Source: Bolinopsis microptera (Eukaryota; Ctenophora; Tentaculata; Lobata; Bolinopsidae). Taken from it: a stretch of DNA of 64,000 bases. The notes below the pieces were generated by a model. The model had not been told where the DNA came from. It made no database searches and saw nothing but the letters and a program-made list of their open reading frames with translations. This document shows, in pieces, positions 18,901-52,858 of the stretch; the first letter of the stretch is position 1; every line of letters starts with the position of its first letter. Both the position numbers and the translations under genes were made by a program. The stretch is taken from assembly GCF_026151205.1 (NCBI RefSeq), contig NC_087083.1:7933460-7997459 (forward strand). Reading direction: 5' to 3'.

Positions 18901-21900
18901 CGACGCCACCCTTGGCTTTGCCGCCGAATCCAAATCCAAATCCTCCCTTCTTCTTCTTCTTCTTGTCATCATCACTGGATGATGAAGAAGAGTCTCTTTT
19001 CTTCTTTCCGCCGAATCCGAAGCCAAATCCACCTTTTGGTTTCTTGACATCTAGATCAACGTCTGCTCCACCGCCGATATCAATATCAGCACCTCCACCA
19101 ATATCAACATCAGGAGCATCGGCTTTAACCTTGATTTCTGGCTCAGGAACATCAATATCAGCATCTGCTTTGACGTTCAAGTCAACATCTGGAACATCGA
19201 CGCCACCCTTGGCTTTGCCGCCGAACCCAAATCCAAATCCTCCCTTCTTCTTCTTCTTCTTGTCATCATCACTGGATGATGAAGAAGAGTCTCCCTTCTT
19301 CTTTCCGCCGAATCCGAAGCCAAATCCACCTTTTGGTTTCTTGACATCTAGATCAACGTCTGCTCCACCGCCAATATCAATATCAGCACCTCCACCAATA
19401 TCAACATCAGGAGCATCAGCCTTAACCTTGATTTCTGGCTCAGGAACATCAATGTCGGCATCTGCTTTGACGTTCAAGTCAACATCTGGAACATCGACAC
19501 CACCCTTGGCTTTGCCACCGAATCCAAATCCAAATCCTCCCTTCTTCTTCTTCTTCTTGTCATCATCACTGGATGATGAAGAAGAGTCTCCCTTCTTCTT
19601 TCCGCCGAATCCGAAGCCAAATCCACCTTTTGGTTTCTTGACATCTAGATCAACGTCTGCTCCACCGCCAATATCAATATCAGCACCTCCACCAATATCA
19701 ACATCAGGAGCATCAGCCTTGACCTTGATTTCTGGCTCAGGAACATCAATATCGGCATCTGCTTTGACGTTCAAGTCAACATCTGGAACATCGACGCCAC
19801 CCTTGCCTTTGCCGCCGAATCCAAATCCAAATCCTCCCTTCTTCTTCTTCTTCTTACCATCGTCACTCGAACTTGAACTGTCCTTCTTCTTTCCGCCGAA
19901 TCCGAAGCCAAATCCACCTTTTGGTTTCTTAACATCTAGATCAACGTCTGCTCCACCGCCAATATCAATATCAGCACCTCCACCAATATCAACATCAGGA
20001 GCATCAGCCTTAACCTTGATTTCTGGCTCAGGAACATCGATATCAGCATCTGCTTTGACGTTCAAGTCAACATCTGGAACATCAACATCGGCTTTACCAC
20101 CGAATCCAAATCCAAATCCTCCCTTCTTCTTCTTCTTCTTGCTGTCATCACTTGATGAAGAACTTCCAGACTTCTTTTTCTTCTTGCCTCCAAAGCCGAA
20201 GCCGAAACCACCTCCACCGCCAATATCAATATCAGCACCTCCACCAATATCAACATCAGGAGCATCGGCTTTAACCTTGATTTCTGGCTCAGGAACATCG
20301 ATATCAGCATCTGCTTTGACGTTTAAGTCAACATCTGGAACATCAACATCGGCTTTACCACCGAAACCAAATCCAAATCCTCCCTTCTTCTTCTTCTTCT
20401 TGCTGTCATCACTTGAAGAAGAACTTCCAGACTTCTTTTTCTTCTTGCCTCCAAAGCCGAAGCCGAAACCACCTCCAACGTCAACATCTGGCTTCTTTAC
20501 GTCTAGATCAACATCAGCTCCACCGCCAATATCAATATCAGCACCTCCACCAATATCAATATCAGGAGCATCGGCTTTAACCTTGATTTCAGGCTCAGGA
20601 ACATCAATATCAGCATCTGCTTTGACGTTCAAGTCAACATCTGGAACATCTACATCAGCTTTACCGCCGAATCCAAATCCAAATCCTCCCTTCTTTTTCT
20701 TCTTACCACCGTCACTCGAACTTGAAGAAGAACTGCCGCCTGACTTCTTTTTCTTCTTTCCTCCGAAGCCAAAGCCGAAACCACCTCCAACTTTTGGTTT
20801 GTCCACATCAATATCTGCATCGACTGAACCTCCTGAGGATAAATATATTGATAAAAAATATCTTATATCAAAAATGATTAAATTTTCGACTATAGCTCAC
20901 AGAGATGACGTAACATTTTGAGATTCATTTTTTTCCCTCGAAATACCATGGCTTATGAAATTATTCGAAAAGATAATTTTAAAACACATTCAGTTTTTAT
21001 GATATATTGAAAGAATGCTCAGCACACAAGCATATACTGATTTGAAGAATAAGCTCTACTAGTAAAGAGCAACGGAATACCTACCAATATTCGGCAAATT
21101 AGCATCAACACTCCCACCGATGTCAAGACCACCACCGATGCCACCACCGATATCAACATCAGGAGCATCAGCCTTGACTTTGATTTCTGGCTCAGGAACA
21201 TCGATATCAGCATCTGCTTTGACGTTCAAGTCAACATCTGGAACATCAACATCGGCTTTACCGCCGAATCCAAATCCAAATCCTCCCTTCTTCTTCTTCT
21301 TCTTGCTGTCATCACTTGAAGAAGAACTTCCAGACTTCTTTTTCTTCTTGCCTCCAAAGCCGAAGCCGAAACCACCTCCAACGTCAACATCAGGCGCATC
21401 AGCTTTAACTTTGATTTCTGGCTCAGGAACATCGATATCAGCATCTGCTTTGACGTTCAAGTCAACATCTGGAACATCAACATCGGCTTTACCGCCGAAT
21501 CCGAATCCAAATCCTCCCTTCTTCTTCTTCTTCTTGCTGTCATCACTCGAAGAAGAACTTCCAGACTTCTTTTTCTTCTTGCCTCCAAAGCCGAAGCCGA
21601 AACCACCTCCAACGTCAACATCAGGCGCATCAGCTTTAACTTTGATTTCTGGCTCAGGAACATCAATATCAGCATCCGCTTTGACGTTCAAGTCAACATC
21701 TGGAACATCAACATCGGCTTTACCGCCGAATCCGAATCCAAATCCTCCCTTCTTCTTCTTCTTCTTGCTGTCATCACTCGAAGAAGAACTTCCAGACTTC
21801 TTTTTCTTCTTGCCTCCAAAGCCGAAGCCGAAACCACCTCCAACGTCAACATCAGGCGCATCAGCTTTAACCTTGATTTCTGGCTCAGGAACATCAATAT

Positions 21901-24900
21901 CAGCATCTGCTTTGACGTTCAAGTCAACATCTGGAACATCAACATCGGCTTTACCGCCAAATCCAAATCCAAATCCTCCCTTCTTCTTCTTCTTCTTGCT
22001 GTCATCACTTGAAGAAGAACTTCCAGACTTCTTTTTCTTCTTGCCTCCAAAGCCGAAGCCGAAACCACCTCCAACGTCAACATCAGGCGCATCAGCTTTA
22101 ACCTTGATTTCTGGCTCAGGAACATCAATATCAGCATCTGCTTTGACGTTCAAGTCAACATCTGGAACATCAACATCGGCTTTACCGCCGAATCCAAATC
22201 CAAATCCTCCCTTCTTCTTCTTCTTCTTGCTGTCATCACTTGAAGAAGAACTTCCAGACTTCTTTTTCTTCTTGCCTCCAAAGCCGAAGCCGAAACCACC
22301 GCCAACGTCAATATCTGGCTTCTTTACGTCTAGATCAACATTTGCTCCACCGCCAATATCAATATCAGCACCTCCACCAATATCAACATCAGGAGCATTG
22401 GCTTTAACCTTGATTTCTGGCTCAGGAACATCTATATCAGCATCTGCTTTGACTTTCAAGTCAACATCTGGAACAGCAACATCGGCTTTACCGCCGAAAC
22501 CAAATCCAAATCCTCCCTTCTTCTTCTTCTTCTTGCTGTCATCACTTGAAGAAGAACTTCCAGACTTCTTTTTCTTCTTGCCTCCGAAGCCGAAGCCGAA
22601 ACCTCCGCCTATATCAACATCAGGTGCAGAAACGTCGATATCAGCATCTCCTCCAATACCACCGCCTGGAATATAACATAACGATAGAATACACGTTACT
22701 TTCCGGCACACACTTGTGGTAAATGGACATGCGATAAGTGTACGTTAAAAAGAGTGTCGTACGCAATTAATTTTATGATCTTCAGGGTTTTCTATTAAAA
22801 GAAATTTTACTTAGCAATCGTCACAGTATATACATTTTAGAGTGTTATGTATATTGAATGTTGTTAGTAATTACATTTTTACGATGCATTTTTGTTGCTC
22901 ATGCCACTATAGTATACGGATTTTAATGACTTACCGAACCCACCACCAATTCCTCCCCCGATATCTAGATCAGGTGCTTCAATTTCTACTTCAGGCGCAC
23001 TTACATCAGCATCTGTAAATTGACAATACGATAACAGCGTACAACACTACACATAATAATATATTGATTCGATGAAATACATTTTAATTTACAACACATC
23101 GCATATAAATTCAGCACACTTTACAACATTGCCTGTTTGTAATAAATTTAAATCCGTTATAATAACTTACCAATGCCCCCACCTAGGCCACCTCCAAAAC
23201 CACCTCCGAAACCTCCTCCAATACCGCCTCCGATATCAACATCTGGTACCTCAGCCTTAACTTCGACTGCTGGTTCCGGTACATCCACATCTATGTCGGC
23301 TCCTCCTCCGACACCGAAACCTCCACCAAAACCGCCTCCAATACCGCCTCCGATATCTAGATCAGGTGCTTCAACTTCAATTTCTACTTCAGGTGTAGGT
23401 ACATCTACATCTATGTCGGCTCCTCCTCCGACACCGAAACCTCCACCAAATCCACCTCCGATACCGCCTCCGATATCTAGATCAGGTGCTTCAGCTTCAA
23501 TTTCTACTTCAGGTGTAGGTACATCTACATCTATGTCGGCTCCTCCTCCGAGGTCCAGACTTCCACCAAATCCACCACCAATTCCTCCTCCGATATCTAG
23601 ATCAGGTGCTTCAGCTTCAATTTCTACTTCAGGTGCACTTACATCAGCATCTGTAAATTGACAATACGATAACAGCGTACAACACTACACATAATAATAT
23701 ATTGATTCAATAAAATACATTTTAATTTACAACACATCGCATATAATTCAGCACACTTTACAGCATTGCCTGTTTGTGATAAATTTAAATCCGTTATAAT
23801 AACTTACCAATGCCTCCACCTAGGCCTCCTCCAAAACCTCCTCCGAAACCTCCTCCAATACCGCCTCCGATATCAACATCTGGTACATCAGCCTTAACTT
23901 CGACTGCTGGTTCCGGTACATCTACATCTATGTCGGCCCCTCCTCCGAGACCGAAACCTCCTCCGAAACCTCCTCCAATACCGCCTCCAATATCAACATC
24001 TGGTACATCAGCCTTAACTTCGACTGCTGGTTCCGGTACATCTAAATCTATATCGGCTCCTCCTCCGAGACCGAAACCTCCTCCAATACCTCCTCCAATG
24101 CCACCTCCTGCAATGAAATATTTGTAATATTTGTAACAAATTATTAAAATCAGTACTAACACGAGGAAAAAAAATTCATTCGCCGTTAAAATCGAAAGTT
24201 GCATTCCTTAAAAGTTTTCCGTTTGGTTCTTACCGATGTCAACATCTGGTGCTTCAGCTTTCACTTTTATTTCAGGTTCTGGCACATCTACATCTAGGTC
24301 GGCTCCTCCTCCGAGATCCAGACCTCCACCAAGACCTCCACCAAGACCTCCACCGAGACCTCCACCGAAACCTCCTCCAAGACCTCCACCGAGGTTAACA
24401 TCTGGGGCTTCTGCTTCAACTTCAACACTGGGAGCGGCAATATCAGCACCTCCGCTCAGGTCTAAACCTCCTCCAAGACCACCTCCGATGTCTCCACCAG
24501 CGTCTCCACCAACGTCAATACCTCCACCGAGGCCACCACCGAGACTCAATCCTCCACCTCCTCCGAGGTCAAGTCCTCCGTTAGCTTCACCTCCAGCTCC
24601 GGCATCTGCATCAGCTCCACCACCAAAGCTGAATCCAACTGAGAGAGTACGAAACTTAGATAGTTTGTAAAATTGGGCTATATAATGTCATCAGATTTTA
24701 AAAATTCTATCAAGAAACTTGAATTTTTTTGATTGAGCGAGTTCACTTGTATTTCGACTTTATAGATCTACACTACTTACATCCGGACTTCTTCTTCTTC
24801 TTCTTCTTCTTTTTCTTCTTTTTCTTTGAGTCATCCGATCCAGAACTACTCGAAGATGAAGAACTGGAACTGTAAAATAAAGACTAAGTTAGCATACCGA

Positions 24901-27900
24901 TGGATAGAAACGTTTTATTTGATTACATTTACAGCGTTAGACTTTATAAAATTTATAATATATGCCTTATTAGCCTAATAAATGTGTGATAATTATTGCA
25001 AAACTGATTATAATTACGTTTCGAGTCAGTCTGTACTGGTTTAGGGTGTACCAAGCATTCCTAATCGGTTTATAGCATAGGCACATATAACACAATTTAC
25101 AAAGTACAAAAAATAACACCGGCACACCACTTTCACTACATTAAGTGGAAATGATCGTAATCAGACCTAGAGGATGAACTAGAGGATGAACTAGAGGATG
25201 AGCTCGAAGAAGAACTGAAAATTTCTTCAATCAGTTTCAGTTTAACTCTTGTAAGATTTCTGTGTTTTTATTAGTAATGATGCAACTCCATCGCGTCAGT
25301 TGTTATTTCTTGCTCATTGTGAATAAGATAATACGCTTAGGAAAACCAAGCGTCAGAAATTCAATTTTTCAACATTAACAAATAGTAAAACACATACCTG
25401 CTGCTGGAACTGCTGCTACTGGACGATGATTTAGAAGATTTGGAAGACTTCTTCTTACGCTTCTTCTTTTTCTTCTTTCTGCAGAATCCAGGTTAGTTAC
25501 GGAGGGGTTTACACAAGTTATTATATTATTTTTCAAGTTATTATATTCATGTTTTAAAGGAAATAAAACGGTGTCTGACTCTATGTTATCGAATTTACAC
25601 CCCCTCTTATTGTTTTATAAATTGTATAATCCAAACAACGGTCCACCAGCCTCCCAATTACACACACTCCAGATCCTCAATATTCTACACACTTTACAAA
25701 CCCTCATGAAACCAGAGCGGGGACTCTACACGTTTAACATTAAAACATTACATACTTTAATAGGTAGCCAGCTGTGCTGACAAGAAACAAACAGTAGACA
25801 CGTCTAATTTTAAATGTAAACTACTCGAAATTGAAAAAGCTGATTTGAAATTAGAATTAGATTAGGAAAGCTTGAAACAGTAGACACGTTTAAATGTTAA
25901 CTAATCCAGTCTGTTTTCAAGTGGAATTTTAGGTTTAATCTAAAGCTGTGCAGCTTGAGTTTTAACTGTAATTCTACTGCTTCAAACACTAGTAGACACG
26001 TTTAAATGAAAACTATCCGAAATTTGAAAAGTTCTTTTGAAATTAGATGCTCAACTTAATAATTTTGTCGCCAATTAGAAAATAATTAAGGTCTTAACCT
26101 GGTCCTGTCTGTTTCCAAGTAGAATTTAAATCTGTACGGCTTGTAAGTAACTCCATTACTACATGTGCACTATCATCATGGTAACATGTACACTATTTTA
26201 AAAGTGAACCAGCCTCCGGAATATTGCTCATTTTCACTACTATATGAATAATAATATGTATTTTCCTGTCAATACCGGCAGTGACATGAGTTTTGACAAC
26301 CGGCGGTGTTCAGTCAATACCGGGGGTGTTTAGACTGAATGTAATAGAGGGGTGAGAGGTGAGAGGTGAGGGTGAGAGGTGTCGACAAGCTGGCTAAGCC
26401 GGGCAGTATGTAAATAAACCCTCAACAGTCAACACGGTGAAATCCAAATATACCCTCTCAATTCTCACACACACTCGACTAAGCACCGCGTACACACTTA
26501 GTTATATCAACTACCTACTCTATTTATAGTTCACTACCTTCTCTCAAAGTATTAATCTCACTAAGTACATTACCGGTAATAACACCGGCCGGCTTACAGC
26601 CACCTGTAAAGCTGTAAGGGACCAGACTATTAACCTCTGAGAGTACTATTACAGTTAACAGTATTTCCTCTGATAACCCTCTGTAATAACCATGATAACC
26701 CTTATAAGCCGGCCTTACAACAATGCCAGGTTAAAATGAAACAGTGAACTACCAGAAAACCCCGTTATGCCAGAAAAACCCGAACCAAAAAACCCCGTAC
26801 TGATTATCAATAACCCTATATCTCTATACAACCCCTACAACATGGCCCGTTAACCTGGACTCAATGGATTAGTCTATTACAGGGTACCCTTGGTACCCCT
26901 GGTCTATTACGCTACAAAGTGTTGATGTTAATTAGCCAGGATGTTAACTGTGGACTTTACACTCCGAACAAGATGCTATATGTTATAATGCAGCTTATTC
27001 ACTGTAGTTGATAGGTCACGTGGTTACTCCTTTATAATGTATGTCAGAGGTCACGTGGTTACTCCTTATTAAAGATACAAGCTGACTGTAAGTCTCAACA
27101 TTCCATTAAGTGAGCTGTAGAGAGCTGAGTGTGGTCAAAACACGTACATAAGACAAACTGGCTGTAGTCCACGTTACATTAAACTAAAACAATGCCAGGT
27201 TAAAGTGAGACATTGAAAAATGCCAGGTTAAAGTGAGACATTGAACAATTCCCATTTAAAGTGAGACATTGAACAATTCCCGGTTAAAGTGAGACATTGA
27301 ACAATTCCCGGTTAAAGTGAGACATTGAATAATTCCAGGTTAAAGTGAGACATTGAACAATTCCCGGTTAAAGTGAGACATTGAACAGTGCCAGGTTAAA
27401 GTGAGACATTGAACAATTCCCGGTTAAAGTGAGACATTGAATAATTCCAGGTTAAAGTGAGACATTGAACAATGCCCGGTTAAAGTGAGACATTGAACAA
27501 TGCCCGGTTAAAGTGAGACATTGAACAATGCCAGGTTAAAGTGAGACATTGAACAATTCCCGGTTAAAGTGAGACATTGAACAGTGCCAGGTTAAAGTGA
27601 GACATTGAACAATGCCAGGTTAAAGTGATACATTGAACAATTCCCGGTTAAAGTGAGACATTGAACAATGCCAGGTTAAAGTGAGACATTGAACAATGCC
27701 AGGTTAAAGTGAGACATTGAACAATGCCAGGTTAAAGTGAGACATTGAACAATTCCCGGTTAAAGTGAGACATTGAACAATTCCCGGTTAAAGTGAGACA
27801 TTGAACAATTCCCGGTTAAAGTGAGACATTGAACAATGCCAGGTTAAAGAGAGACATTGAACAATTCCCGGTTAAAGTGACACATTGAACAATTCCCGGT

Positions 27901-30441
27901 TAAAGTGAGACATTGAACAATATCAAAAAACCCCGGACCAAAAAACCACATACTAATTTATAATAACCGTTGCATGTTAATCCAATTACACCGAGCTTAC
28001 AATTTCGTGCCTACTTATGTCCGGCTCTTTTCGATTGTGCTGTGGTATAAATTGTAATATCACAAGCAAGGTATCTTCACAAGCAAGGTATCTCCTCTTA
28101 GTTATCTGTCCCAAGTTATACTTATATACATGTATTTGTGTAGTAGTATAGTAGTATGTAACTCATACATATAGCCTTCTACCTAAACCCCACACCATTC
28201 TATTCTTTTCAAACACGCAGTCCTATAATTTAATTTATAATTTAATAACCAACATAACTTAATTTTAAAACGATTACGACTCATCACACGAACTTTAAGT
28301 TGTTCAGTTTAGATCAACCACACAGATATTTGCAAACTTCTCCCGCTCCCCATTTCAAAGGTCTATCTAACAGTTTAGACGGCAGTATATTTAAATTAAA
28401 TTGAATATTTAATTTTAATTTTCTAATTTGTTACTGCAGGAAGGTGTAATGATCAATTTACAAAAAAGATTAACTTTTTAATATTCAACAGGAGTGCCCG
28501 TTATAGCTAAAGAAATTTAAAAACTAAAAGACAACATTTTGCTGTTATTGAACCATCCCGCGAAATAATAAATTGTAAATAAGAAAGTGACTTACTCTGA
28601 AGATTTACTGGATCTTGATTTGGAAGAGGAGGAGGAAGAGCTAGTGGAAGAACTCCTACTGTCACTATGAGACTTATTGCGTGACTTTCTATCTTTCTTT
28701 GCGTCAGAATCGGAAGAAGAAGACCTCTTCTTTTCCGCGCTGAGGATTGTTTGATTAGTCAAGTAATTAACTATATTTATTATTTATGAATTGTGAATCA
28801 GAATGTTGTGAAGTGTGAAGCTGCCCATGAGACAACCAATTCAGAAAACACGTTTTCCTGATGGGCATAGATCAACTGAACGCTTAAACCATAATACAGC
28901 TTGCTTTCAGTCGCCAACAATGACCAGTCCAATACCCGGACAAGTCCCATACCCGGACCAGTCCCATACCCGGACCAGTTCCATACCCGGACCAGTCCCA
29001 TACCCGGACCAGTCCCATACCCGGACCAGTCCCATACCCGGACCAGTCCCATACCCGGACCAGTCCCATACCCGGACCAGTCCCATACCCGGACCAGTCC
29101 CATACCCGGACCAGTCCCATAACTGGACCAGTCTCATAGCCGGACCAGTCCTAAATCCCCTATCCCAGATGTAAGAGTAAAGTACGTGACTATAACTCAT
29201 TGACACGCATGACGCATTCTGTCATGAAGAGTAAAGTGTTTATAAACTCAAGCATTCCGTCAAAAAAAATTTTAAACTTGCATGTTTTTGCTTGTGAATA
29301 TTACTGTAATAAATATTTCCCGCTCTGTTCATTGTTTCACACAACAAAAGTCAGTGTCACAGTGCATGTTACGTGTGCATGTGTGTGTGTTTGTGTGTGT
29401 TTGTGTGTCTTGGCTCGCCGAGTTGTTTACGAAATGTACTTCACTCATTCTCACGTACTATCTGCGTGTCAATGTGTGCTGTCGAGCACTACAATGAAGA
29501 ATCTACAATACGTGTGTTACTGTTTGTAGTCACGTGGCTGATAATGTCACGTGGTAAAGACTGTGAGCACAAGGCAGTCTGTCAGAATGTTAGATTCGCC
29601 GCAAATATTATACGAAATCCTAAAAACTATAAGGTTGTCGGAATTTTTTCAAATGACGGTCAATGCTTTGTCAGAGAACAGTAAATAAATATTTAACACT
29701 AGTGATATAAGCAGTGAGATCAGCAGTGCTATAGTAGTAGTACTAGCAGTGAGATCAGCAGGCCGGGTTACACTAGCAGTGACTCTGTGAATTTCACAAA
29801 CAGTGATCTAACTTTACGCGTACTCTCAGGCTAAAGAATGTGCAGCTTTCAAGTGAACAATTCAAGTTTCCCTTTTCTTTATAGTCTTACTTGAAAAGTG
29901 TTCGGTATTTTTCATGGAATAAATAAAGTATTGTTGTAAAAGGTGTATCAAAAACCTTCACCAATTTTCGGTGTTCAAAATATAAGGCTCCTACTATATA
30001 AGCACACATAAGGTAGATCCCGTCTTCAAATCCTGTCGTTTCAACAGTAAGATAATCATACATAGAATGAAGACAAGAACTGAAGACGAACTATGGTAGT
30101 CGAAAAATATAAGATAAAGTGATGCTGACCATGAAGAATTACCTAACGGGTAGCGGGACAGGGGGTTTGAAAACTGGTAGTTTCACTGCTGCATCCCCGG
30201 ATACTCCAGCATCCCCGGATACCCCAGCTTTAGAAGACGCTGCTGCTGCTACTGATGCTGATGGTTTCATCTGAACTTTACCACCCTTCCCAACTTTCAC
30301 ATCAATTACTCTAGCTGGTGCTTTTTTGGTCCCGCCGAACATCGCGATCATAGACGACACCCTCTTTGAAGAGTCCCAGTTGCCTTTAGCATCCACCCTA
30401 ACATCACCACTAGCGGAGACCTCGACTTCAGGATCTGCCAT
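4232..30441 (-). CDS. Giant AHNAK-like repeat protein, 19 exons, 5,754 aa (main reading)
   Basis: Exons, 5' to 3' on the minus strand: 30441-30143, 28739-28596, 25478-25398, 25214-25167, 24869-24781, 24638-24234, 24107-23808, 23650-23171, 23012-22935, 22665-21085, 20832-18466, 18176-17277, 16964-16752, 16093-10307, 9613-9573, 9464-9099, 8802-7729, 7525-7244, 6961-4232. All junctions are GT-AG and phase-compatible, and the total is exactly divisible by three. The repeats (GPDIKVKGPKVKAPKGDVDV, DVDLNVKADADIDVPEPEIK, DIDIPDPKIKVKADKPDADI) have the alternating Asp/Val/Leu/Lys/Pro pattern and the total length typical of AHNAK/desmoyokin, a giant scaffold at membranes and the actin cortex in vertebrates. 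That role is inferred, not shown. No PDZ domain, signal peptide or membrane segment was recognised. True orthology versus convergence of low-complexity repeats is open. Confidence 0.82.
7244..7525 (-). CDS. AHNAK-like exon 18: one AHNAK-type repeat
   Basis: 282 nt, phase 0 to 0, ADIDADIKAPKVKGKSSFKL at the start and NGPKVD at the end. It is a single-unit relative of exons 16 and 17, sharing their acceptor (CAG|GCCGA) and donor (GTAGAC|GTAAGT) bases, so these exons arose by duplication. Confidence 0.84.
7729..8802 (-). CDS. AHNAK-like exon 17: 87-residue AHNAK-type repeats
   Basis: 1,074 nt, phase 0 to 0. It holds four 261-bp units: FKFPSFGFGGSGGGKVKGPK, IDGSISGSLSGSGPDIKVKG, PKVKAPKGDVDVDLNLGGGA, DLDVKGPDVDVDVKAPDADV. 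It starts ADLEANVKGPKVKGKKSSFK and ends NGPKVD. Confidence 0.85.
9099..9464 (-). CDS. AHNAK-like exon 16: canonical AHNAK-type repeat
   Basis: 366 nt, phase 0 to 0. It starts ADIDAPKADVDLDANVKGPK and contains GPDIKVKGPKVKAPKGDVDV, ending SGPKVD|GTAAGT. The KVKGPK / DVKGPDVDVDVKAP pattern is the closest in the window to vertebrate AHNAK repeats. Confidence 0.84.
9573..9613 (-). CDS. AHNAK-like exon 15: 41-nt adaptor exon
   Basis: Enters in phase 1 and leaves in phase 0 (ATTAAG|GTAATT), coding GGDLDADVSAPKIK. It links the phase-1 block to the phase-0 block. Confidence 0.75.
10307..16093 (-). CDS. AHNAK-like exon 14: 5.8 kb exon of about 20 91-residue repeats
   Basis: 5,787 nt, phase 1 to 1, acceptor TTTACAG, donor GTTG|GTAAGT. 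The monomer is about 273 bp: SSSSSDD(D/G)KKKKK, (G)SFKFGLGG.GDAD, DLKLKGDADIDIPDPKIKVK, ADKPDADIK(I/V)KTPKVKG, DVDVDIKKPKGKGGFGIGFG, GKKSG. Two monomer types alternate (KKKKKKRGSFKFGLGGKGDADI and KKKKKGGFKFGLGGSGDADV), giving a 546-bp dimer period. Sequence identity between copies is very high. The antisense strand is also open across the exon, but with no independent protein character. Confidence 0.87.
16150..16355. repeat. Intronic GAATGTAGT / GGATGGAATGT repeats
   Basis: Degenerate copies of a GGATGGAATGTAGTGAATGT unit with TTGGACATTAA spacers, about 33 bp apart, in the intron between exons 13 and 14. It passes into GAATGTTGTGAA words. No coding sense. Confidence 0.75.
16752..16964 (-). 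CDS. AHNAK-like exon 13: single repeat unit
   Basis: 213 nt, phase 1 to 1. It starts with the same 40 bases as exon 12 (GDIDVDKPKIGGGFGFGFGG) and ends DVDLNVKADADL. It looks like a truncated third copy of the exon 12 start. The acceptor is ATTAG, less usual but functional by consensus. Confidence 0.78.
16965..19380 (-). repeat. About 1.2-kb tandem segmental duplication inside the AHNAK-like gene
   Basis: The intron 16965-17276 and the intron 18177-18465 are near-identical (shared TGTTATAACTTAATACAAAC, then AAATGCGCCACAAATTTCAG, then a shared AT-rich tail with a short length difference), and the adjoining exon sequence is alike too. Recent duplication of intron plus exon is the simplest reading. 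The far end at about 19.38 kb is approximate. Confidence 0.8.
17277..18176 (-). CDS. AHNAK-like exon 12: duplicate of the exon 11 3' part
   Basis: 900 nt, phase 1 to 1. It starts GDIDVDKPKIGGGFGFGFGG and ends DVDIGGGADIDI. The unit (S/K)GKGSGSSDDDKKKKKKKK with SSFKFGMGGKAKGGIDTPDV near the 3' end is the same as in exon 11. Confidence 0.85.
18466..20832 (-). CDS. AHNAK-like exon 11: GFGFGGKKK / PEPEIKVKADAPDVDI repeats
   Basis: 2,367 nt, phase 1 to 1, about nine repeats of the exon 10 kind with added DIDIGGGADVDLDVKKP linkers. The 3' part of this exon plus the following intron is duplicated as exon 12 and its intron. Confidence 0.85.
21085..22665 (-). CDS. AHNAK-like exon 10: 77-residue repeats
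   Basis: 1,581 nt, phase 1 to 1. It is built of 231-bp units: GGGFGFGFGGKKKKKSG, SSSSSDDSKKKKKK, GGFGFGFGGKADVDVP, then DVDLNVKADADIDVPEPEIK and VKADAPDVDV. Four central copies are almost identical at DNA level, pointing to recent unequal exchange or gene conversion. Confidence 0.85.
22935..23012 (-). CDS. AHNAK-like exon 9: short copy of the exon 8 start
   Basis: 78 nt, phase 1 to 1, ADVSAPEVEIEAPDLDIGGG then IGGGF. It lacks the rest of the exon 8 repeats. Confidence 0.78.
23013..23807 (-). repeat. Duplicated intron sequence around exons 8 and 9
   Basis: The stretch after the exon 9 acceptor (23015-23170) and that after the exon 8 acceptor (23653-23807) share long runs (ACGATAACAGCGTACAACAC, then TAATAATATATTGATTC, then TTTGT.ATAAATTTAAATCC). 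Exon 9 or 8 arose with its intron from the other. Confidence 0.85.
23171..23650 (-). CDS. AHNAK-like exon 8: PTPEVEIEAEAPDLDI repeats
   Basis: 480 nt, phase 1 to 1. It starts ADVSAPEVEIEAEAPDLDI and carries four Gly-rich/acidic units. Its flanking intron bases are nearly the same as those of exon 9, a mark of exon duplication. Confidence 0.82.
23808..24107 (-). CDS. AHNAK-like exon 7: IGGGFGGG / PEPAVEVKADVPDVDI repeats
   Basis: 300 nt, phase 1 to 1, two copies of a unit of Gly-rich linker plus LDVPEPAVEVKADVPDVDI. Confidence 0.82.
24234..24638 (-). CDS. AHNAK-like exon 6: Gly-rich LGGGLGGG segment
   Basis: 405 nt, phase 1 to 1. It codes FSFGGGADADAGAGGEANG, then long LGGG/FGGG runs with short AAPSVEVEAEAPDVNL and DVDVPEPEIKVKAEAPDVDI strands. 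This is the first appearance of the PEPEIKVKAEAPDVDI motif used in the later repeats. Confidence 0.82.
24781..24869 (-). CDS. AHNAK-like exon 5: Ser run, SDDS, then eleven Lys
   Basis: 89 nt, enters in phase 2 and leaves in phase 1 (GGAT|GTAAGT). It codes nine Ser, GSDDS, eleven Lys and SG. It is the adaptor exon between the phase-2 and phase-1 blocks, so it is predicted to be constitutive. Confidence 0.78.
25167..25214 (-). CDS. AHNAK-like exon 4: micro-exon coding only serine
   Basis: 48 nt, phase 2 to 2, donor CTAG|GTCTGA, acceptor TTTTCAG. All 15 whole codons are Ser, and both split codons are Ser too. It contains three 12-bp units (TCATCCTCTAGT). Inclusion or skipping only changes the length of the Ser run. 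Confidence 0.75.
25398..25478 (-). CDS. AHNAK-like exon 3: poly-Lys then poly-Ser
   Basis: 81 nt, phase 2 to 2. It codes KKKKKKRKKKSSKSSK followed by ten Ser. This block is nearly repeated at the very C-terminus of the protein (KKKKKKTKRRKKGSKSSK then poly-Ser at about 4240-4370). Confidence 0.8.
25790..26170. repeat. Degenerate tandem repeat in intron 2
   Basis: Three diverged copies, 110-190 bp apart, start with AGTAGACACGT.TAAATG and contain GAAATTAGA and CTGTCTGTTTTCAAGT-like words. Non-coding. Confidence 0.6.
27188..27922. repeat. 28-bp minisatellite in intron 2
   Basis: About 26 head-to-tail copies of GGTTAAAGTGAGACATTGAA followed by an 8-base variable part, either CAATTCCC or CAATGCCA. 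The two unit types are interspersed. Single diverged units occur at about 26720. The sequences on both sides (AAAAACCCCG..CCAAAAAACC at about 26780 and 27930) are themselves alike. Confidence 0.93.
28596..28739 (-). CDS. AHNAK-like exon 2: Lys/Arg/Ser/Asp-rich
   Basis: 144 nt, phase 2 to 2, between CCTCAG and GTAAGT. It reads AEKKRSSSSDSDAKKDRKSR then ends in SSSSKSRSSKSSE. It is the common acceptor for all four first-exon options and resembles phosphorylation-prone RS/KS linkers. Confidence 0.8.
28928..29145. repeat. 17-bp minisatellite (CCCATACCCGGACCAGT)n in intron 1
   Basis: About twelve copies. Because 17 is not a multiple of three and the unit lacks stops, several frames on both strands stay open. 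These are not genes. Confidence 0.92.
29146..30142. other. Rest of intron 1 (exon 1a to exon 2)
   Basis: A short GT-rich tract lies at 29370-29410. No exon could be supported. CAGTGAGATCAGCAG words repeat at about 29715-29785. Confidence 0.5.
30143..30441 (-). CDS. First exon 1a (MADPEVEVSASG...) of the AHNAK-like gene
   Basis: 299 nt, phase 2 exit at GTTAG|GTAATT. It codes a small conserved block (G.WDSSKRVSSMIAMFGG), a basic VKVGKGGKVQMK stretch, an Ala/Ser linker and PVFKPPVPLPV. The block shared with exon 1b is the only non-repetitive, globular-looking part of the whole protein, and is a candidate interaction motif. Domain unknown to me. Confidence 0.82.
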
Positions 30442-30711
30442 TCTCAGTTTGTCTGATAAACGTGTAACTATCTAATATCCTAAACCTATATTAGCTATAC
30501 AAATGATATGAAGTTAGAAAGTTTCCTTATTTATGGTTGTGAAACCAAATATTAACTCATCAGAATTCCAGTGCCAAACAGCAATTGACCGACAAAGAAT
30601 ATAAAAATAGGATTAAGGTGGGCTAAAAAAATGAAATTCGCCACTTCTAACCATCTTTACTTTTTTACAAAAAGGTGGATGGAAAAATATAAAAATAACT
30701 GCACGAAACTA

Positions 30712-30818
30712 CGAGTTCTGCACGAAACAACGAGTTCTGCACGAAACTACGAGTTCTGCACGAAACTACGAGTTCTGCTCGAAACTACGAGTTCTTCACT
30801 AAACTACGAGTTCTGTAC
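30712..30818. repeat. 19-bp tandem repeat (CTGCACGAAACTACGAGTT)n
   Basis: About six copies with few changes, upstream of exon 1a. Confidence 0.88.
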
Positions 30819-31685
30819 GAGTTGGTGGACCTACAAAGCAACGGGAATTAAGTAAGACTGCGGCAATAGATGACGATCAGCTATCAGCAGTGACCAGGTA
30901 ACACAAACGGCAAATCCGACAACCGCTCAACACCCGACTATAAAGGCTGGTGTATTCTTTATACTCTCACACACTCACAGCCTCGCAGTGTGTTTTCATC
31001 GTTTTTACACGAAAAGTTGGTGCAACGTAAGTCCGCAAAGTGTCAGCGGCAGTCTGGAGAACGTACTATAACGGCGCCTGTATCACACTATGAACTGCAA
31101 GTCACTTGGTTACTTACAGTTAACAGTTACTGAGTAACCAAAAAAGTTACTAAGTTACCAAAAGGTAGCACAAAGCCGACATAAGAACCTGCAGGTAGGA
31201 CGGACTAACGAGGCTTTTATCACACTATCAACTTAAGTCACCTAGTTACTAGCAGATATGAGTAAGCACCGGCTAAACCTGTGACTATTTTAAACCCTGG
31301 TACCGTGGTGTAAACAAGCACAAAAAGTAGGCGCCAACCCACTTCACTATCATAAATGGTAACGTTACCATAGTAACACTACCATATAAGGCGCCAACTC
31401 ACTTCACTACAACAGTTAAAAAGCTTTGTGTGCAAAGCACAACCTCTTTATCAACTAAAGAATGTGACACTCAACACTATTACACACGCAAACTGACTAA
31501 ATTATTCAACAGGAGGGTTTTCACGCGTGAAAATTTATTCCTTGGCTACGGATAAAACCTCAAGTTCATGAGTAATGTTGATACCCAAAGTTAGCGACCG
31601 GCATTCTATATGCTCGTAAAGTCAGGACAGCGTAGACTTTGTCCCATGACGAAGATCACTTCCCAGACTAATTGTACACGTTAAC

Positions 31686-31711
31686 AAATATCCTAGTTAA
31701 CTAGGATATTT
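31686..31711. other. Perfect 26-bp palindrome
   Basis: AAATATCCTAGTT is followed directly by its exact reverse complement AACTAGGATATTT with no loop. It could form a cruciform or be a dimeric protein site. Function unknown. Confidence 0.7.
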
Positions 31712-33537
31712 TTCACGTGTAAACTAGGATTTTAAATAAATCTACGCGATCCTACATACGAAAATCAAAGTTGTGTCCATGATGATTTACATGATGATTT
31801 ATGATTACATAAACATATCATGACGACTGGAGAGTACACCGAGAGGTGGTCACCTAGAACACACCGCTGATATCTAAACTTTCTCTAAAAAACAGAATCA
31901 TAAGGCATTCTGCGCCAATTTTCTCTGTCAAAAGTAATATTCCTAAGAAACTTTAAACATCCAAACAATGACTGTAAATATATGTACAACATGTGTGTCT
32001 CGCACCAGACTGTGACTAATAAATAGGAACTTATAAATAGAAGCTTAATATGCGATATATTATTTTATTCAGATATTATTTTAGACAAGCTATACGCGCA
32101 AGAAGCTGAGATAATGTAATATATTATGTAAGGCATGAGTTGATGGGTATATAACTATTCAAGTAAAGAATGTTCCCACAACAGCACAGAAAACTTTACC
32201 TGGGGACCCCAGGCTATTATGTTCATAAACATAGAGACTCGGCGGAATGACCGGCGGAATGACCGGCTGAGCGCCGCTCAGTAAAGAAATCTCCACATAG
32301 TATAATATTGTATGTGTACCCATGGCTTAACAATAACAAACCTAACGAGCTCCCCACATTGAAGAGTCACTTTTCTAAATTATACTATGTACAATTATAC
32401 GAGATGAAACCAATCAGGCAGGATGACGTGGTTTTTAATGAGGAAAGATGAGGGAATGAGAATTGAGGAGTTCCAGTAGTGTAGTTGAGTATAAGTGTAA
32501 TTCTACAATCTACATGCTCCATATCTACCATCCTTTCTATTATACGTGTGGAACCTACATACAGTCTTTATATTGTTCTCATCATATTCATCGTCATTTT
32601 TTGAAAAAAATAACGTTACCTACGTATGCAGTTCTGTTAAGTGAAAAAAAAGTTACCAAACTGCAGTTCTGAAGTTGAACAACAACATTACCTACAGTTA
32701 ATCTGAAGTTCTTAAGCCCTGTCAATATATTAACATGCTGGCTGCTGCTGACAACTAAAACTTCGCTGCAGTTGACAGGCAGTTCCAGTGTTCCACACCT
32801 TCAACCAAACTTCAACACAATTAGTCAGCACAATGTGCGATCACGTGACCCCATTACGGAACATTAAGCCCAAACTTTCATGTCTAACAGTTAAAACAGA
32901 GCAAAAGATGCGCAGCGTGTTAAAAAGATGTGCAGCTGGTAACAGTCTTCTGTCTGGATAGCTTTATCATACCAGGTCTAGATATAGTAATAAAGTCACT
33001 GTTATAGCTCTATAGAAACCGAACAAAACACCAACCAGGTGAACCACACACAAACCGTCGGGATCATCTTTCCTGGGCCACTCTCTCCACTATTAGCTTA
33101 ATTCAATCTATCTACGGAAACATAGCTCAAATTCTCTTGTGAAGCGATCCGCCTGGAAGATGTTCAATGGACCAGCTGGTATATTTAACAAATTTGTTGA
33201 TGAAGGAGCATAGCTTACATTCACGTGTATGAGGCAACATTCCAGAATATTATATCCTCCGACTTTATGTCACATAAAATAGTTTTATATAAATTAATCG
33301 CACACTCTAAGTTGGCGGAGAGATGATCAAATACCGGCCCTAGTTCTCGGGATCTAATTATCAGGGAAACTAAATCTAATTGCTGAGATGAGGGCGCCTA
33401 ACTTGGAATTCGGCTGTATATTATCCTGCAGATTCCTAAAATACCGGTTAAAGACAATAAATAGGATCTAATCCAGCGAAGGAAGAAGAGCTTGGAACGG
33501 CGCGTGTAAGGAAAGAATGCGATGTTTCAGGCCGCTC

Positions 33538-33567
33538 TCTCTCTCTCTCTCTCTCGATCTCTCTCTC
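33538..33567. repeat. (CT)n microsatellite
   Basis: About 15 CT units with one GAT interruption. Confidence 0.85.
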
Positions 33568-34440
33568 TTTAAAGCTGAGCCACAGAATAAAGCCCGCGTG
33601 ATTTGATGTTTTGTGCTTGCGAAGTCTATTACTCTACTCTTTTCTGGATTTTAGCCACGAGAAGAAAGAGTAAGAAGGATCATGAAGCGTAGTAACTTTA
33701 GAAGTTGGCGCTATTTTCCAGACTACACTCAGAGTGTGACTGAGAAAGAGTGTGGCCGGGCATGATCTGTGGAAGAGGCGGCTGAAATCTAATTCTAGCG
33801 GGCCGGGAAATGTTTTAGTCTTAGGTAATAGTGAACGTAGCTTTACTCCGAGTGCGTGATTAGTGCGGAATAGTCTAGAATAATAAGCCGTCTATTCAGA
33901 AAGCCTGTAACATTCTCATAGGATTATTCCATCAAAACTATTTATTAAATCGATCTTGAATAAACGCGATATTTCTAGAATCACCATTTTAACATGAACA
34001 TTGAACAACCATTCGTAATCTACCATTTTTAACTTTTTACAAAAAGGTGGATAGAAAAAATAAAATATATTTGCCTCGTTATATTCTATTGTGCACGAAA
34101 TTAAGAGCGGGCTTTTTCATCCAGACTATAAAATTACATTTTTGAATGAAATGGTAAGGAAAAAGGGGCAAAGTTAAGTTTTATAACGGAGTTATAGAGG
34201 AGGTCGAAGCAGGGTAAGGTTTTGGAACTGGGGTAGGAGCTAGAAGTTATGTTTCAAATATTATCGTATTATGAATTATCCGGAATGTCGTGATAATTGA
34301 TAATACGAGGAAGAGGAGTGGACAATACTTGCATATCTTCAAAATAATAACCCGTCACCACAAACTATTGCCTTTTTAAGTTACAAAAATGTCTCCTGAT
34401 TATAGCAACAAAACATTCTGATAGAAGGTTAGCTAATTGC

Positions 34441-34560
34441 TAGAGAGAGGGAGAGAGAGAGAGAGAGGTCTAAAGAAACTGCAGTTGAAACACAGGTGGA
34501 TAGAGAGAGAGGGAGAGAGAGAGAGAGGTCTAAAGAAACTGCAGTTGAAACACAGGTGGA
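34441..34560. repeat. 60-bp exact-period tandem duplication
   Basis: Two copies begin TAGAGAGAG and end AAGAAACTGCAGTTGAAACA plus CAGGTGGA, differing only within the GA run. Confidence 0.92.
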
Positions 34561-34939
34561 TAGAGTAACTCAACTCACTCAGACCAACTCACTCGACTTG
34601 GTGACAGATTCCTGCTGTGGCCGAGTTGCTACCAATGGGTGCTTGCTCTATCACACGATGACAGTGTACACAGTAGGCTTGTCGGATGAACGTACTGGAC
34701 AGCTGATGATGAGGCAGGGAGGAGGAGGAGGGGAGGAGGGTACCGGAGAGAAACTAAGAACTCATCCGACACCCGTCATATAACATATTGTAAGATACCA
34801 TGGAGAGAAGTAGCAAGGTAGGTTACAGGGAAACAAAGCTGTGGGTGAGCTGCTGAAACACTGTCCACGAGTATATATATGCTCGGGCCGTGAACAGTGT
34901 ACAATTTGCAGGCAGTCAAATTCACGCTCAGACATGCCT

Positions 34940-35026
34940 TGTAGTACCGTGTCTTGCGGAGGTGCCGTGTAGTACCGTGTCTTGCGGAGGTGCTGTGTAG
35001 TACCGTGTCTTGCGGAGGTGCCGTGC
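34940..35026. repeat. 28-bp tandem repeat, three copies
   Basis: Unit GTAGTACCGTGTCTTGCGGA plus GGTGCCGT, three copies with one C/T change. Confidence 0.9.
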
Positions 35027-36114
35027 TGTAACTGTAAATACCTTCTGGTCTAAAGGATCCCTCACATTCTTCACCTCGGGGAATTCCTTCTTCAAACCTT
35101 GGCGGCATAGATGGTGCGTGGATATCAACTTGATCTATCTAATATCTTGATGATTTAATGAAGCTCGATGAGTTTTAGGCACATTTTTTTGAAATCCCAT
35201 AACAACGTCAAAACGAGCCATCTAGCTACACGTTACAAACATAACGAACGACTTTTCAAAATACAGAAACCATGACGAGGACTACAATGAAAGCTCTCAG
35301 TCACGCAGTGAAAAGCAAATACAAGATATATTAATGTGACGGATTGCACTAACGACCCTGCCTCTGTAACCACTACAAATCACTCTTTTAGCGGTAGACC
35401 TGTCCGAACATACCTCCCACATTAGGAGTTAGAACCTCCAAATAGTTGGGATACCGCACGTGTTTGCAATATCCGAGGAGGAGATGGTCGTGAGATGTGG
35501 CCCGGGATGTGGCATTGTGGCCTCATTTAAGATGTAAGGCCTCTCCAATTAATAATTAGTAGCAATTAGTACTGCAGTAACATGAAGTTACTGTTCTTAA
35601 GGGATCGTTACAGGTTACATCAGCCTGTATAAACGGTGATAACAGATTCAGCTGCTAGACAGACAAAGTGAACAAGCATTCTATAGCATCATGGATCATC
35701 CTAATTTCATAGCAAGTATCATATACTAGTCCAGGGCATGTTTCATACATGTTAGCAATTCAGGGCAAGTACATGTCAGTAACATGCAGCTTTAATAGGC
35801 TATAAACGGAGATTTAAATGGAAATTTTTTGTCCAACTAAATGGACCGCTGGCAACTAATTTTCGCTGATGTAAAATTTAGATTTCCAATTATGAACACG
35901 ATCATGAGCTATTTATAGTTAAGATAAAATATTGCTTACGAAGATTTTTTTGATAACGAGTTCGAGCAACCTGTGTCACAATTAATTATCAAATTAGTCA
36001 ATTATCTCTTCGATCTTGTTCGTAAACGTAACAGCTTGATCAAACAAATGAAAACAAGAAGAAAAATGTGGTTGCAAAAAATTAAATAAAGTAATGTTAA
36101 CCACAATTAATTAC

Positions 36115-36329
36115 CTAACTGGAAGCTTAACAGGGGGTTTGTGAAATGACATTCTCGGGCTTTTCACCCCAGCACTTCCGGATACCCCAGCACTCCCGGA
36201 TACCTCATGTCCGTGATTGGACCCACCCCCGAACACCTCGATCATGGACAAGACTCTTTTAGGAGAGGACCATTGCCCTTTATCATCCACCCGGATGTCT
36301 CCGGAGACTTTAATTTTAGGATCCGCCAT
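36115..36329 (-). CDS. Alternative first exon 1b (MADPKIKVSG...), paralogue of exon 1a
   Basis: 215 nt, starting MADPKIKV and ending ...PPVKLPV with donor TTAG|GTAATT, the same donor and phase as exon 1a. Shared features with exon 1a: MADP start, GDIRVD/GDVRVD, KG.W.S.KRV.SMI..FGG, GVSG repeats and the KPPV.LPV end. Upstream bases are also alike (GTGCCAACAG...TTGA..GACAAAGAAT then GTGGGCTAAAA), so promoter and exon were duplicated together. Splicing to exon 2 would give 5,726 aa. Confidence 0.8.
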
Positions 36330-37462
36330 ACTCTGATTGTATGGTTAACGTGGAGGTATTTAATAAACTGACCTTATAATAGCTGCACAAATGTTGCGTA
36401 GTTAGAGGTGAAGCCAAACGTTAAATTTAGCAGAAATCAAGTGCCAACAGAAATTGATTGACAAAGAATTTAAGTGGGCTAAAATATGAATAGCAAGATT
36501 TAAGTGAGAGTGCGACAGAAATTGAACGAGTTGATTCAATCAATCAGCTGCAAGTTTCAAATTGACTACAGAAAAATCCATAAAAATTTATGGCCAACCA
36601 ATAATAACGTACGACAATAAATAATGAACGGGCTTTTAGAAAAGCAACTCTTCTAACGGCCAGCGCACAAAGAAACAGACCACAAACTCTCAAGGTATGT
36701 AAGATTTCACCACTGCCAGTAAAGTCTTTCTTCAGAGCATTCACTTCCTTTAGTTTTATAATACACTTATATCTAATTTAATAATACTAATAATGGTAAG
36801 CAGGATATATTCACGGAGCCGTATCGTGTGGAGGCCCCGCAATAGAGGGAGATTTCATTGTCAATTTTCTAATTATTTGTTTCTTTTAGATACCGCAACT
36901 TCAGAATTGAAAGATGGGATTAGAACAAAACCCTCTTCCACCCTGCCACACTGAAGATGGTGCACACTGGAAATGGTGCCAGATGAAAGTTTACAGCAAG
37001 TGTGGCTCACACAGTCAGGTACCCGATAACCAGAATAAACCAGTGCCTCATATAGTCCTGGGTATAATTATGGTGCCAAATTTCCACTGAGCTTCTGTGT
37101 CCACCTGCTACACTCTACAGGACACGTTACGTATCATGATTTATTGCTCGTGAGTTCTTAAATATAGAAAATAGTTATTGAAGGAGTTATCAGGGAGCAC
37201 TCAGAAGGAGCAATCTGCTATATTGGGGGCCCTTATTTGCTTTTCACATCGGTCACAATTTTGTAACTACCAGTCAAAATATAAATTTTAAAACTTTGGC
37301 GTTTTCTTCGAAATTTCGCATATTTTGCTATAACTATCCTTAAATATGCTATATATAGCATATATATGCTATATATGGTATATATATAGCATATATATAT
37401 GTAATAGTATCACTTTTACTACTCATCAAATTCAAATTAAGGGTATATTGATTATGGCTTAC

Positions 37463-37506
37463 CTCGTCCCAAACTTTTCGGGGTCAAACTTTGCAATAAA
37501 GTCCAT
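37463..37506 (-). CDS. Candidate alternative first exon 1c (MDFIAKFDPEKFGT)
   Basis: An ATG in good context (AAAGATGG) opens 14 codons plus two bases and ends at ACGAG|GTAAGC, again phase 2, so it can splice to exon 2 (28739) to give 5,669 aa. It sits about 400-550 bp downstream (in gene direction) of a CRE/E-box repeat array. No protein family was recognised in the 14 residues. Confidence 0.5.
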
Positions 37507-37904
37507 CTTTTTAAATATACTGAACACTACAAAAACGCACGAAACATTAAGACTACTAATGAAATAACGCTCGACTTGATGTTTAATTGCAAAAGAATTC
37601 CAATTATTTATCCCCCGTGCCACATTAAAACTACTGTAAAATGTAATGTGAACTGTTGTACTGTACTTGAAGGTAACTCAAAAACGGAATTTTAAGCTTA
37701 TAAGATCTACACAAAATTTGGTCGAGATTAGTGGCTACAATATAATATATTGTATAATTATATATATAATATATTATAAGGTAAGTGTTTTAAATAGCTT
37801 TGAGTACATGTTATTTAGTGCTTATCATGTATCTAGGTAACTTTCATTCCCGGTATGGATTGTAGACGCAATTTCATAATGACGTGGCATTACACACTTA
37901 AACT

Positions 37905-38060
37905 ACATTAACACCACGTGTTATGACGTCACACCACGTGTTATGACGTCACACCACGTGGCATTACACACTTATACTACATTAACACCACGTGTTATGA
38001 CGTCACACCACGTGTTATGAAGTCACACCACGTGTTATGACGTCACACCACGTGGCATAT
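37905..38060. promoter_or_regulatory. CRE plus E-box repeat array upstream of exon 1c
   Basis: A 20-bp unit ACCACGTGTTATGACGTCAC is repeated inside a larger duplicated block (GCATTACACACTTA.ACTAC). It holds seven CACGTG E-boxes (37915, 37935, 37955, 37989, 38009, 38029, 38049) and four perfect TGACGTCA CRE palindromes (37924, 37944, 37998, 38038), with a fifth mutated to TGAAGTCA (38018). The spacing is exactly one unit. It lies 400-550 bp upstream of the exon 1c ATG. CREB/ATF and bHLH-type binding is inferred from the motifs only. Confidence 0.6.
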
Positions 38061-38414
38061 TACACACTTACTACCACTACCAGCCGACTTCATCCTCAAC
38101 TCTCCTCAATGTCATTAAAAGGCTAAACAAAACCCTCAAAATGTCATAAAACTAGTCGACCAATTCCCAAAATTTCACATCATCCCTAATCTTTGGTGCC
38201 ACCCAAGATACCCCCAAATAAATTTTCGAAGGATCTCGAGCAGTGAATTTGTGATTTGTAAACACGGAATATCTTGTGGATGTGTTGTGGTGAATAATAA
38301 TATGAGTGGTGTCTCAATTCTCAGTTGGGAAATTTCATTATTTAGTATAGAATTGATACTTATCTTGAGCATAAAACATTATCTAAAATATTGATAAAAT
38401 TTGTAATTGCTTAC

Positions 38415-38447
38415 CTTTTTGATCTAGATCGCGACCGACTGTTCGAC
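38415..38447 (-). CDS. Arg-Ser mini-exon following exon 1d
   Basis: 33 nt between ATTCCAG and GTAAGC; enters and leaves in phase 2. It codes (R)SNSRSRSRSK, which extends the RS repeat of exon 1d. It is symmetric, so it can be included or skipped without changing frame. Confidence 0.5.
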
Positions 38448-38629
38448 CTGGAATATCGTTATCAGCAAAATTGCAATGACTCATCAATCATCAAGCATGA
38501 TTTTACTGCAAAAATTCAAACATCTGATAACAGCATATAAACTTAATTGATGTTTTAAATTCATTATTTCATAAATTGCTTATATTTTAAATGATAACTG
38601 TTCAAAAAAATAATTAATTATCAAATTAC

Positions 38630-38649
38630 CTGCTTCGTGAACGGCCCAT
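38630..38649 (-). CDS. Candidate alternative first exon 1d (MGRSRS)
   Basis: ATG GGC CGT TCA CGA AGC AG is followed by GTAATT, a 20-nt coding piece ending in phase 2. Joined to the mini-exon 38447-38415 and then to exon 2 it gives an Arg-Ser-rich N-terminus running straight into the Lys/Ser exons, and a 5,672-aa product. The fit of composition and phase supports it, but the exon is very short. Confidence 0.5.
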
Positions 38650-40484: not shown

Positions 40485-40590
40485 ACCTCTTTAAACCTTA
40501 TATTTTGGGCGGAATATAATAAACTGGAATATCGTAAAACTGCTTTCAAGACAACAATCTTGTTCTCAACTAACTCGCCAAGCAAATATA
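40485..40590. repeat. Dispersed repeat, copy 1
   Basis: Shares TATATTTTGGGCGGAATATA, then ATCGTAAAACTGCTTTCAAG and TTGTTCTCAACTAACTCGC, with 43018-43148 in the same orientation. The second copy holds an extra GTAACGTTACGCCACTGCTGG segment. Confidence 0.8.
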
Positions 40591-41144
40591 ATTCTTGTGG
40601 TCAATGAGAGGAATGTATAAAGAATGTATATGGTATGCTTGGAATTCGTGTCCGTTACCCTTTGCGGGCCCGGAAACTAAAGCTGCAAATGCACACCACA
40701 GAGGGAACTAGATATTTCAATTCTTTCCAAAATTGTCGATTTCGAAATATCACCTTTACGAAACACAAGAAAATATTTCGCACCTCTTATATCTCTTACG
40801 TTCAATGGTAGAGGATATATGAAATCAAACGGAGCAATTAAATGTTTTAAATCTTCTGAAACCACACATGAATGAGGAACCAGCCTGAATAACAAATTTA
40901 TAACTTTATAAGTCAGAGCTTATCAATTCAGATTCCGTCGAGGCCCATTTTCAATAATTAAATAACGGCCGATTTCATTAGTAACCCTCAAATTATGGTT
41001 TAAGTTAACAAGATCACTATGAGACTGTTGGTGACTGAATTACTGACTATATTAAAAGTGTTCTCTTACAGAGTTGTGAAAGATAGGGGAAGATAATCAT
41101 CTCCAACTACATATAGTGCAGAATCTGCACAGCAGATCTTCAGT

Positions 41145-41475
41145 CATTCCAGCAAATTCTCAGGATGATTTAACGTTTTATTGGAGGAATTGCAGCAATT
41201 TCTGAGGATGATTTAACGTTCCTCATGGTGATGTTTTTATTGAAGCTAGTTATTAAAATGTAACGGAACATGATGTCCCATCTGTGCTCCAGGAATTTTA
41301 ATATTGTGACCCAATTATACCCCAACTGTGCCTAGCTCCATTACCAAATTCCTGATTCAAGGTTTGTATTGGAGAAATTCCAGCAATTTCAAAAGATGAG
41401 TTAACGTTTTGTTATAGGAGCTGGTTACTATAAATCTATAATGTAACGGAACTATGTCCCAGCATATCTTTACAC
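41145..41475. repeat. Degenerate tandem duplication
   Basis: Repeated words: TTCCAGCAAATT, GATGATTTAACGTT, TAATGTAACGGAAC and TGTCCCA, in about three copies. Non-coding. Confidence 0.6.

Positions 41476-52546: not shown

Positions 52547-52858
<312 letters not shown>

Follow-up and report, generated by a model that had tools for sequence, protein, structure and literature searches.

The 64,000-nt stretch of the Bolinopsis microptera genome analysed here (NC_087083.1, positions 7,933,460 to 7,997,459; hereafter the window, whose positions serve as coordinates throughout) carries on its minus strand a gene for a giant repetitive protein, together with a series of candidate first exons, termed heads A to D, on the same strand. 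The gene is predicted to have at least two, and probably three, interchangeable first coding exons. We consider it reasonably likely that this is a single ctenophore gene in which heads A, B and D are mutually exclusive first exons, each with its own promoter and outron and each capped by a spliced leader.

All four ATG-bearing 5' exons of the original prediction were found where it had placed them. Each has an open frame, a GT donor (GTAATT in heads A and B, GTAAGC in head C and GTAATT/GTAAGC in head D) and an end in phase 2, and each joins in frame to a common exon 2 at 28739. The arrangement of the plectin type, in which a common exon 2 is preceded by multiple ATG-bearing first exons that end in the same phase, is therefore present; the case for A and B is strong, that for D moderate and that for C at chance level. 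The proposal that heads are exchanged on one giant body remains the best reading for A and B and probably for D, while C is undecided.

Duplication and constraint of heads A and B

Genome-wide searches covered 264,652,675 bases in 232 contigs. With the head A protein as query, three candidates passed initial screening and three rows were obtained at E<=10, namely head A and two pieces of head B, so that no exons other than A and B were reported across the genome. The first piece of head B matches head A residues 1-38 with 67% amino acid identity (E 3.2e-6) and the second matches residues 73-99 (E 3.94). A DNA-level search with head A recovered only head A itself and missed head B. The DNA similarity between 30604-30066 and 36473-36047 falls into two segments, one of 67.5% over 274 and the other of 71.2% over 170, and spans the flank, the exon and the donor side; the two heads also have a common phase and common last residues. 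A 45-bp element that lies upstream of A and between A and B, 88.9% similar between its two minus-strand copies at 34065-34022 and 30694-30650, is perhaps a relic of the same duplication.

The two exons carry a signature of purifying selection. Over 62 codons chosen as well aligned, the proportions of synonymous (pS) and nonsynonymous (pN) differences are 0.544 and 0.201, which correspond to synonymous (dS) and nonsynonymous (dN) divergences of 0.97 and 0.23 and a dN/dS of 0.241; pS exceeded pN in 1000 of 1000 bootstraps of these codons, and all 68 aligned codons gave a dN/dS of 0.301. When neutral drift was simulated at 0.5 substitutions per site, the share of copies that kept the ATG, open frame and GT was 0.8% for B and 0.3% for A. 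The 5' flanks (A -164 to -1, B -146 to -1) are identical in 108 of 144 aligned columns (75%), against a null with a median of 0.44 and a maximum of 1.0, the latter probably due to simple repeats or overlapping picks. The 36 differences in 144 flank columns compare with about 25 in 46 synonymous sites (about 46% identity there; Fisher p 0.0005), and with 25 in 62 third codon positions, relative to which the flank is somewhat less diverged (p 0.03). Because of the purifying selection, and because the 5' flanks are more conserved than synonymous sites, A and B are both probably used; both heads and both flanks look maintained, and the conserved flanks could be promoter, 5' untranslated region (5'UTR) or acceptor.

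Heads C and D and the chance expectation

Splice sites were scored with models built on the giant gene's own 16 donors and 17 acceptors, and the 10.24-kb head region was compared with five control stretches of 42,245 bases in total. The control set is strict because one of its stretches overlaps the T-box gene region. The head region contains three one-exon phase-2 heads of at least 40 nt with a donor at least as good (A, B and C), and one and two such heads in phases 0 and 1, respectively. The controls contain eight in phase 2, or 1.94 per 10.24 kb, and an open frame, a donor and a phase are therefore weak evidence alone. At lengths of at least 200 nt the counts are two in the head region versus 0.48 per 10.24 kb in the controls. 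Two-exon phase-2 heads occur in eight combinations in the head region (head D, two joining D1 to C, two short ones ending at 30835 and three inside A) versus none in the same controls, and among the eight head D alone is Arg-Ser-rich, with a combined Arg and Ser fraction of 0.76. Judged from their sequences, heads A and B are above chance by homology, and head D is above chance by composition.

Head D is probably a third head of the Arg-Ser type. Head C has no support beyond its open frame, donor and phase, and is doubtful as a first exon. An acceptor at 37633 scores 9.85, with 0.6% of the AGs in the window as good, and the exon 37633-37463 (171 nt) stays open in frame when joined after head D; head C may be part of this internal exon. 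A transposon origin of C or D was set aside, both regions matching only themselves in a genome-wide search that skips simple repeats. The coordinates of the heads and of the other main features are given in Table 1.

Table 1. Features of the giant gene and the spliced-leader array (window positions, except for the array).
Feature	Position	Strand	Description
Head A	30143..30441	-	Putative MADP-type alternative first coding exon of 99 codons, ending in phase 2; open ATG-to-donor frame; paralogue of head B
5' flank of head A	30442..30605	-	Homologous to the B flank; candidate promoter/5'UTR/outron acceptor
Head B	36115..36329	-	Putative MADP-type alternative first coding exon of 71 codons, ending in phase 2; paralogue of head A
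5' flank of head B	36330..36475	-	Homologous to the A flank
Head C (doubtful)	37463..37506	-	44 nt, MDFIAKFDPEKFGT; first-exon evidence at chance level
Head D	38415..38649	-	Mini-exons 38649-38630 and 38447-38415 encoding MGRSRSRSNSRSRSRSK; Arg-Ser composition runs on into exon 2
Common exon 2	28596..28739	-	Arg/Ser/Lys-rich; in-frame join with all four heads
Common body after exon 2	4232..25478	-	16 exons; Gly/Asp/Lys/Ser-rich repeats; AG/GT junctions; tandem repeat arrays
Candidate alternative terminal exon	25136..25214	-	Ser run and RSDYDHFHLM stop, AATAAA at 24919; or 48-nt cassette 25214-25167
Spliced-leader/5S rRNA array (G000)	C13:12796631-12894454		Loci L025-L027, L039, L046-L048, L055-L057; copies differ by many small indels

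Proposed leader capping, probable mutual exclusion and alternative explanations

The genome contains the leader RNA genes on which spliced-leader trans-splicing depends. A leader-like sequence and 5S ribosomal RNA (5S rRNA) occur together in a repeat of about 880 bp on contig C13, and of the eight 5S rows in loci L025 and L026 seven score at or above the Rfam gathering value. The 3' end of the leader is the AATTTGAG motif, which PMC8527503 reports for ctenophore leaders; the same source found that 56% of the Iso-Seq reads from Hormiphora californensis, another ctenophore, carry a leader. The genome is also ctenophore-like in its ionotropic glutamate receptor (iGluR) genes: iGluR-like ligand-binding matches number 32 rows, and the one frame among them that was compared, in locus L018, has as its best match the solved receptor labelled ML032222a iGluR, of Mnemiopsis leidyi (E 9.1e-121; 209 bits over one 131-residue stretch). 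A 27-base leader pattern, searched with up to three mismatches, has 19 matches in the genome versus none for a reversed control, seven of them in the C13 array and 12 elsewhere. The array copies are followed directly by GTAAG (three) or by near variants of it (four). None of the 12 dispersed copies (loci L040-L045 and L049-L054, on other contigs) is followed by GTAAG, and several soon reach an ATG; they are possibly retrocopies of trans-spliced RNAs, and as some have one common downstream sequence they may form one repeat family. The count alone of a short leader pattern told little: it had 114 matches in forward and 77 in reverse orientation, and its reversed control had 71 and 74. Since the genome holds this array, leader trans-splicing probably shapes mRNA 5' ends.

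An acceptor-like AG lies 53 nt before the ATG in both head A (exon start 30494, score 1.92) and head B (36382, 3.34). Joins of B to A, C to A, D to A, C to B and D to B through these -53 sites, the only acceptors tried, all reach stops, and by this measure the heads must therefore exclude one another. Mutual exclusion would be expected if every head that is used had a transcription start and an outron of its own and were capped by the leader. Heads A and B stem from the duplication of a unit that took in the ATG exon with its donor and some 150 bp of 5' flank, and selection has kept both; D is probably a third head of the Arg-Ser type, and C is not established. In the mechanism that we propose, each head in use would be transcribed from its own promoter with its own outron, the outron would be swapped for the spliced leader, and the head would then be cis-spliced to 28739, skipping every head downstream of it. 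The heads would thereby set where, or with what, the common body assembles. The promoter-choice design of the original prediction is favoured to this extent, a separate promoter for each head being the preferred form, although other routes exist in a genome with a spliced-leader array.

One such route, which we regard as unlikely, is a single upstream promoter giving a long pre-mRNA in which the choice of a trans- or cis-splice acceptor picks the head. Spliced-leader genes are indeed present, acceptor-like AGs stand before both A and B, and alternative trans-splicing of C. elegans sma-9 is described in PMC2904332 as giving a transcript with a tissue-specific role. However, with the donor of an upstream head ahead of it, the acceptor of a downstream head would tend towards cis-splicing, and the -53 joins of this kind, five in number, reach stops; in addition, the conserved flank of about 150 bp goes beyond what an acceptor alone needs. 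We also doubt, though with more hesitation, that only two heads are real (A and B, or D and one of them) and the rest chance frames or relics. That head C is at chance, and that the density of one-exon heads of at least 40 nt is near that of the controls, would both be expected under this alternative, but A and B are paralogues under constraint, and D shares the Arg-Ser character of exon 2, with nothing comparable in the controls. It is very unlikely that the upstream exons B, C and D form a gene of their own, separate or nested, on the same strand: nested intronic genes are reported to be common in a related genome (PMC8527503), but B is a copy of A with the same phase and last residues, and the three minus frames of 28741-43142 gave no Pfam match at E<=0.5.

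Several observations weigh against A, B and D being mutually exclusive, leader-capped first exons. All junctions between the heads and exon 2 are predicted from the genomic sequence alone, and the number of one-exon heads is close to that in the controls. The acceptor-like sites at -53 are of middling quality (7.8-11.8% of AGs are as good), and better-scoring AGs lie at 30452 for A (11 nt before the ATG, 3.36) and at 36478 for B (149 nt before, 5.98); the second acceptor of head D is weak (1.07). The first 80 intron bases of A and B are identical at 44 positions (55%), within the null (maximum 0.625). The 62 codons and the flank boundaries were picked after the alignment had been viewed, and since the flank ends were chosen from it the flank-conservation result is favoured; a pairwise dN/dS is also silent on whether both copies were constrained throughout. 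Finally, the 64-kb window contains no leader copy, though the proposed mechanism does not need one there.

The giant protein, comparable systems and other features of the window

The hand-curated body comprises 17 exons from 28739 to a stop ending at 4232, and all of its junctions have an AG acceptor and a GT donor. With each head it forms a single open frame, of 5738 (A), 5710 (B), 5653 (C) and 5656 (D) amino acids (aa) plus stop. A complete frame with each head had been predicted and is found, but the predicted lengths of 5,670-5,754 aa are 16 aa longer than in the curated model, an excess that would be accounted for if the 48-nt exon 25214-25167, left out here, had been counted there. The donor of this exon, TAGGTCTGA, scores 1.77, and 17% of the GTs in the window are as good. 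Rather than containing a 48-nt cassette, 25214-25136 may be the terminal exon of a short isoform, which would recall the short isoforms of AHNAK and periaxin. The exons at 26680, 26393, 25776 and 25135 of an automatic exon chain were judged spurious, and the curated model took the place of that chain. One type of body repeat was searched genome-wide, and its matches were reported at the giant-gene locus only (10). Minisatellites lie in the introns near exon 2, at 27188-27921 (28 bp) and 28922-29151 (17 bp). The predicted product, of about 5,650-5,740 aa, is repetitive and probably a cytoskeletal or scaffold protein.

AHNAK, to which the original prediction likened this protein, has a very large body of short Asp/Val/Pro/Lys-like repeat motifs. 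Its relatives periaxin and AHNAK2 are stated in PMC7072810 to have an N-terminal PDZ domain. Scans of heads A and B, of 10 of the 17 body exons (the remaining seven are short and unscanned) and of the three minus frames of 28741-43142 gave no PDZ match. The N-terminal PDZ domain of the AHNAK/AHNAK2/periaxin family is thus missing from the pieces scanned, and because of this the AHNAK-like identity is reduced to a resemblance. A PDZ or other domain gene hidden in the head region was sought by Pfam scans of 28741-43142 (minus strand) and 28741-38642 (plus strand) and not found, the plus frames giving a single weak row, Lectin_N (E 0.32). This row, a Dapper row (E 0.0044, under its cut-off) and weak rows on the body repeats, including PF17496 DUF5431, which lies above its cut-off (33.9 versus 27 bits), were put aside as low-complexity or chance. 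Among solved structures, head A has no relatives beyond two matches at E 0.61. The likeness to AHNAK, AHNAK2 and periaxin extends to a very large repeat body and, in human AHNAK, to an alternative first exon and a short isoform, whereas the ctenophore body is split over many exons and has Arg/Ser exons and Gly-rich and Ser-Asp-Lys repeats. As described in PMC5481333, the alternative first exon of human AHNAK is hypoxia-induced and also termed a long non-coding RNA isoform, and the short isoform shares the first four exons of AHNAK; the statement that no such design was described for AHNAK genes needs softening to that extent. Searches of the literature outside subscription journals and preprints returned nothing for AHNAK with Mnemiopsis and only apparently unrelated work for AHNAK with ctenophores; for alternative promoters or first exons in ctenophores, no title among the matches listed concerned this gene.

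Clustered protocadherins and UGT1A, the models first put forward, join variable 5' exons to a shared 3' part. Their variable exons encode most of a functional domain, and that of a clustered protocadherin encodes the whole ectodomain, whereas the ctenophore heads add only 14-99 aa to a body of about 5,640 aa; plectin is the closer model. The plectin gene (PLEC) is reported to give about a dozen transcripts, in which variable first exons are joined to a common exon 2 and the N-terminal head differs (PMC8391331). Both systems thus place variable first exons on the common exon 2 of a giant protein, cytoskeletal in plectin; plectin has more heads, no plectin domain was found in the pieces of the ctenophore gene that were scanned, and leader trans-splicing is probable in the ctenophore. 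The variable-first-exon design is already known from plectin, and the present gene is not of a new kind. C. elegans also uses spliced leaders. Its ryanodine receptor gene unc-68 has mutually exclusive first exons, 1.1 and 1.2, with alternative promoters and tissue-specific use (PMC7644089). It too encodes a large protein, but an unrelated one with two heads, and its tissue use was shown experimentally.

If confirmed, the present gene would place exchangeable first exons on a giant scaffold in a lineage that is among the earliest to branch within the animals, independently of plectin, and would offer a clean case for how promoter choice and leader trans-splicing divide the choice of an N terminus. 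The A/B duplicates would provide a built-in comparison of two regulatory flanks. A further and tentative idea, which we put forward as a speculation, is that a ctenophore has evolved its own giant scaffold with plectin-like switching of heads and with a promoter and leader acceptor for each head, in which the Arg-Ser head could direct the body to sites resembling nuclear speckles, and the two MADP heads could direct it to the cytoskeleton or the cell cortex; if true, one giant body would serve several compartments via its heads.

Other features of the window lie on the plus strand or are repeats. A rhodopsin-family G-protein-coupled receptor-like frame occupies 1550-2653 (plus strand; Pfam 7tm_1, E 3.2e-20), and a transposase-like frame at 45757-48164 (plus strand; DUF4371, E 1.6e-18), presumably of the hAT type, is followed by a second frame fragment. 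The T-box gene lies at about 60549-61016 (plus strand) in two pieces, one above the family cut-off and one below. Long short-period arrays are found at 50570-50869, 52548-52857 and 63220-63805 (TACCAG, GT and CTGGTTAC).

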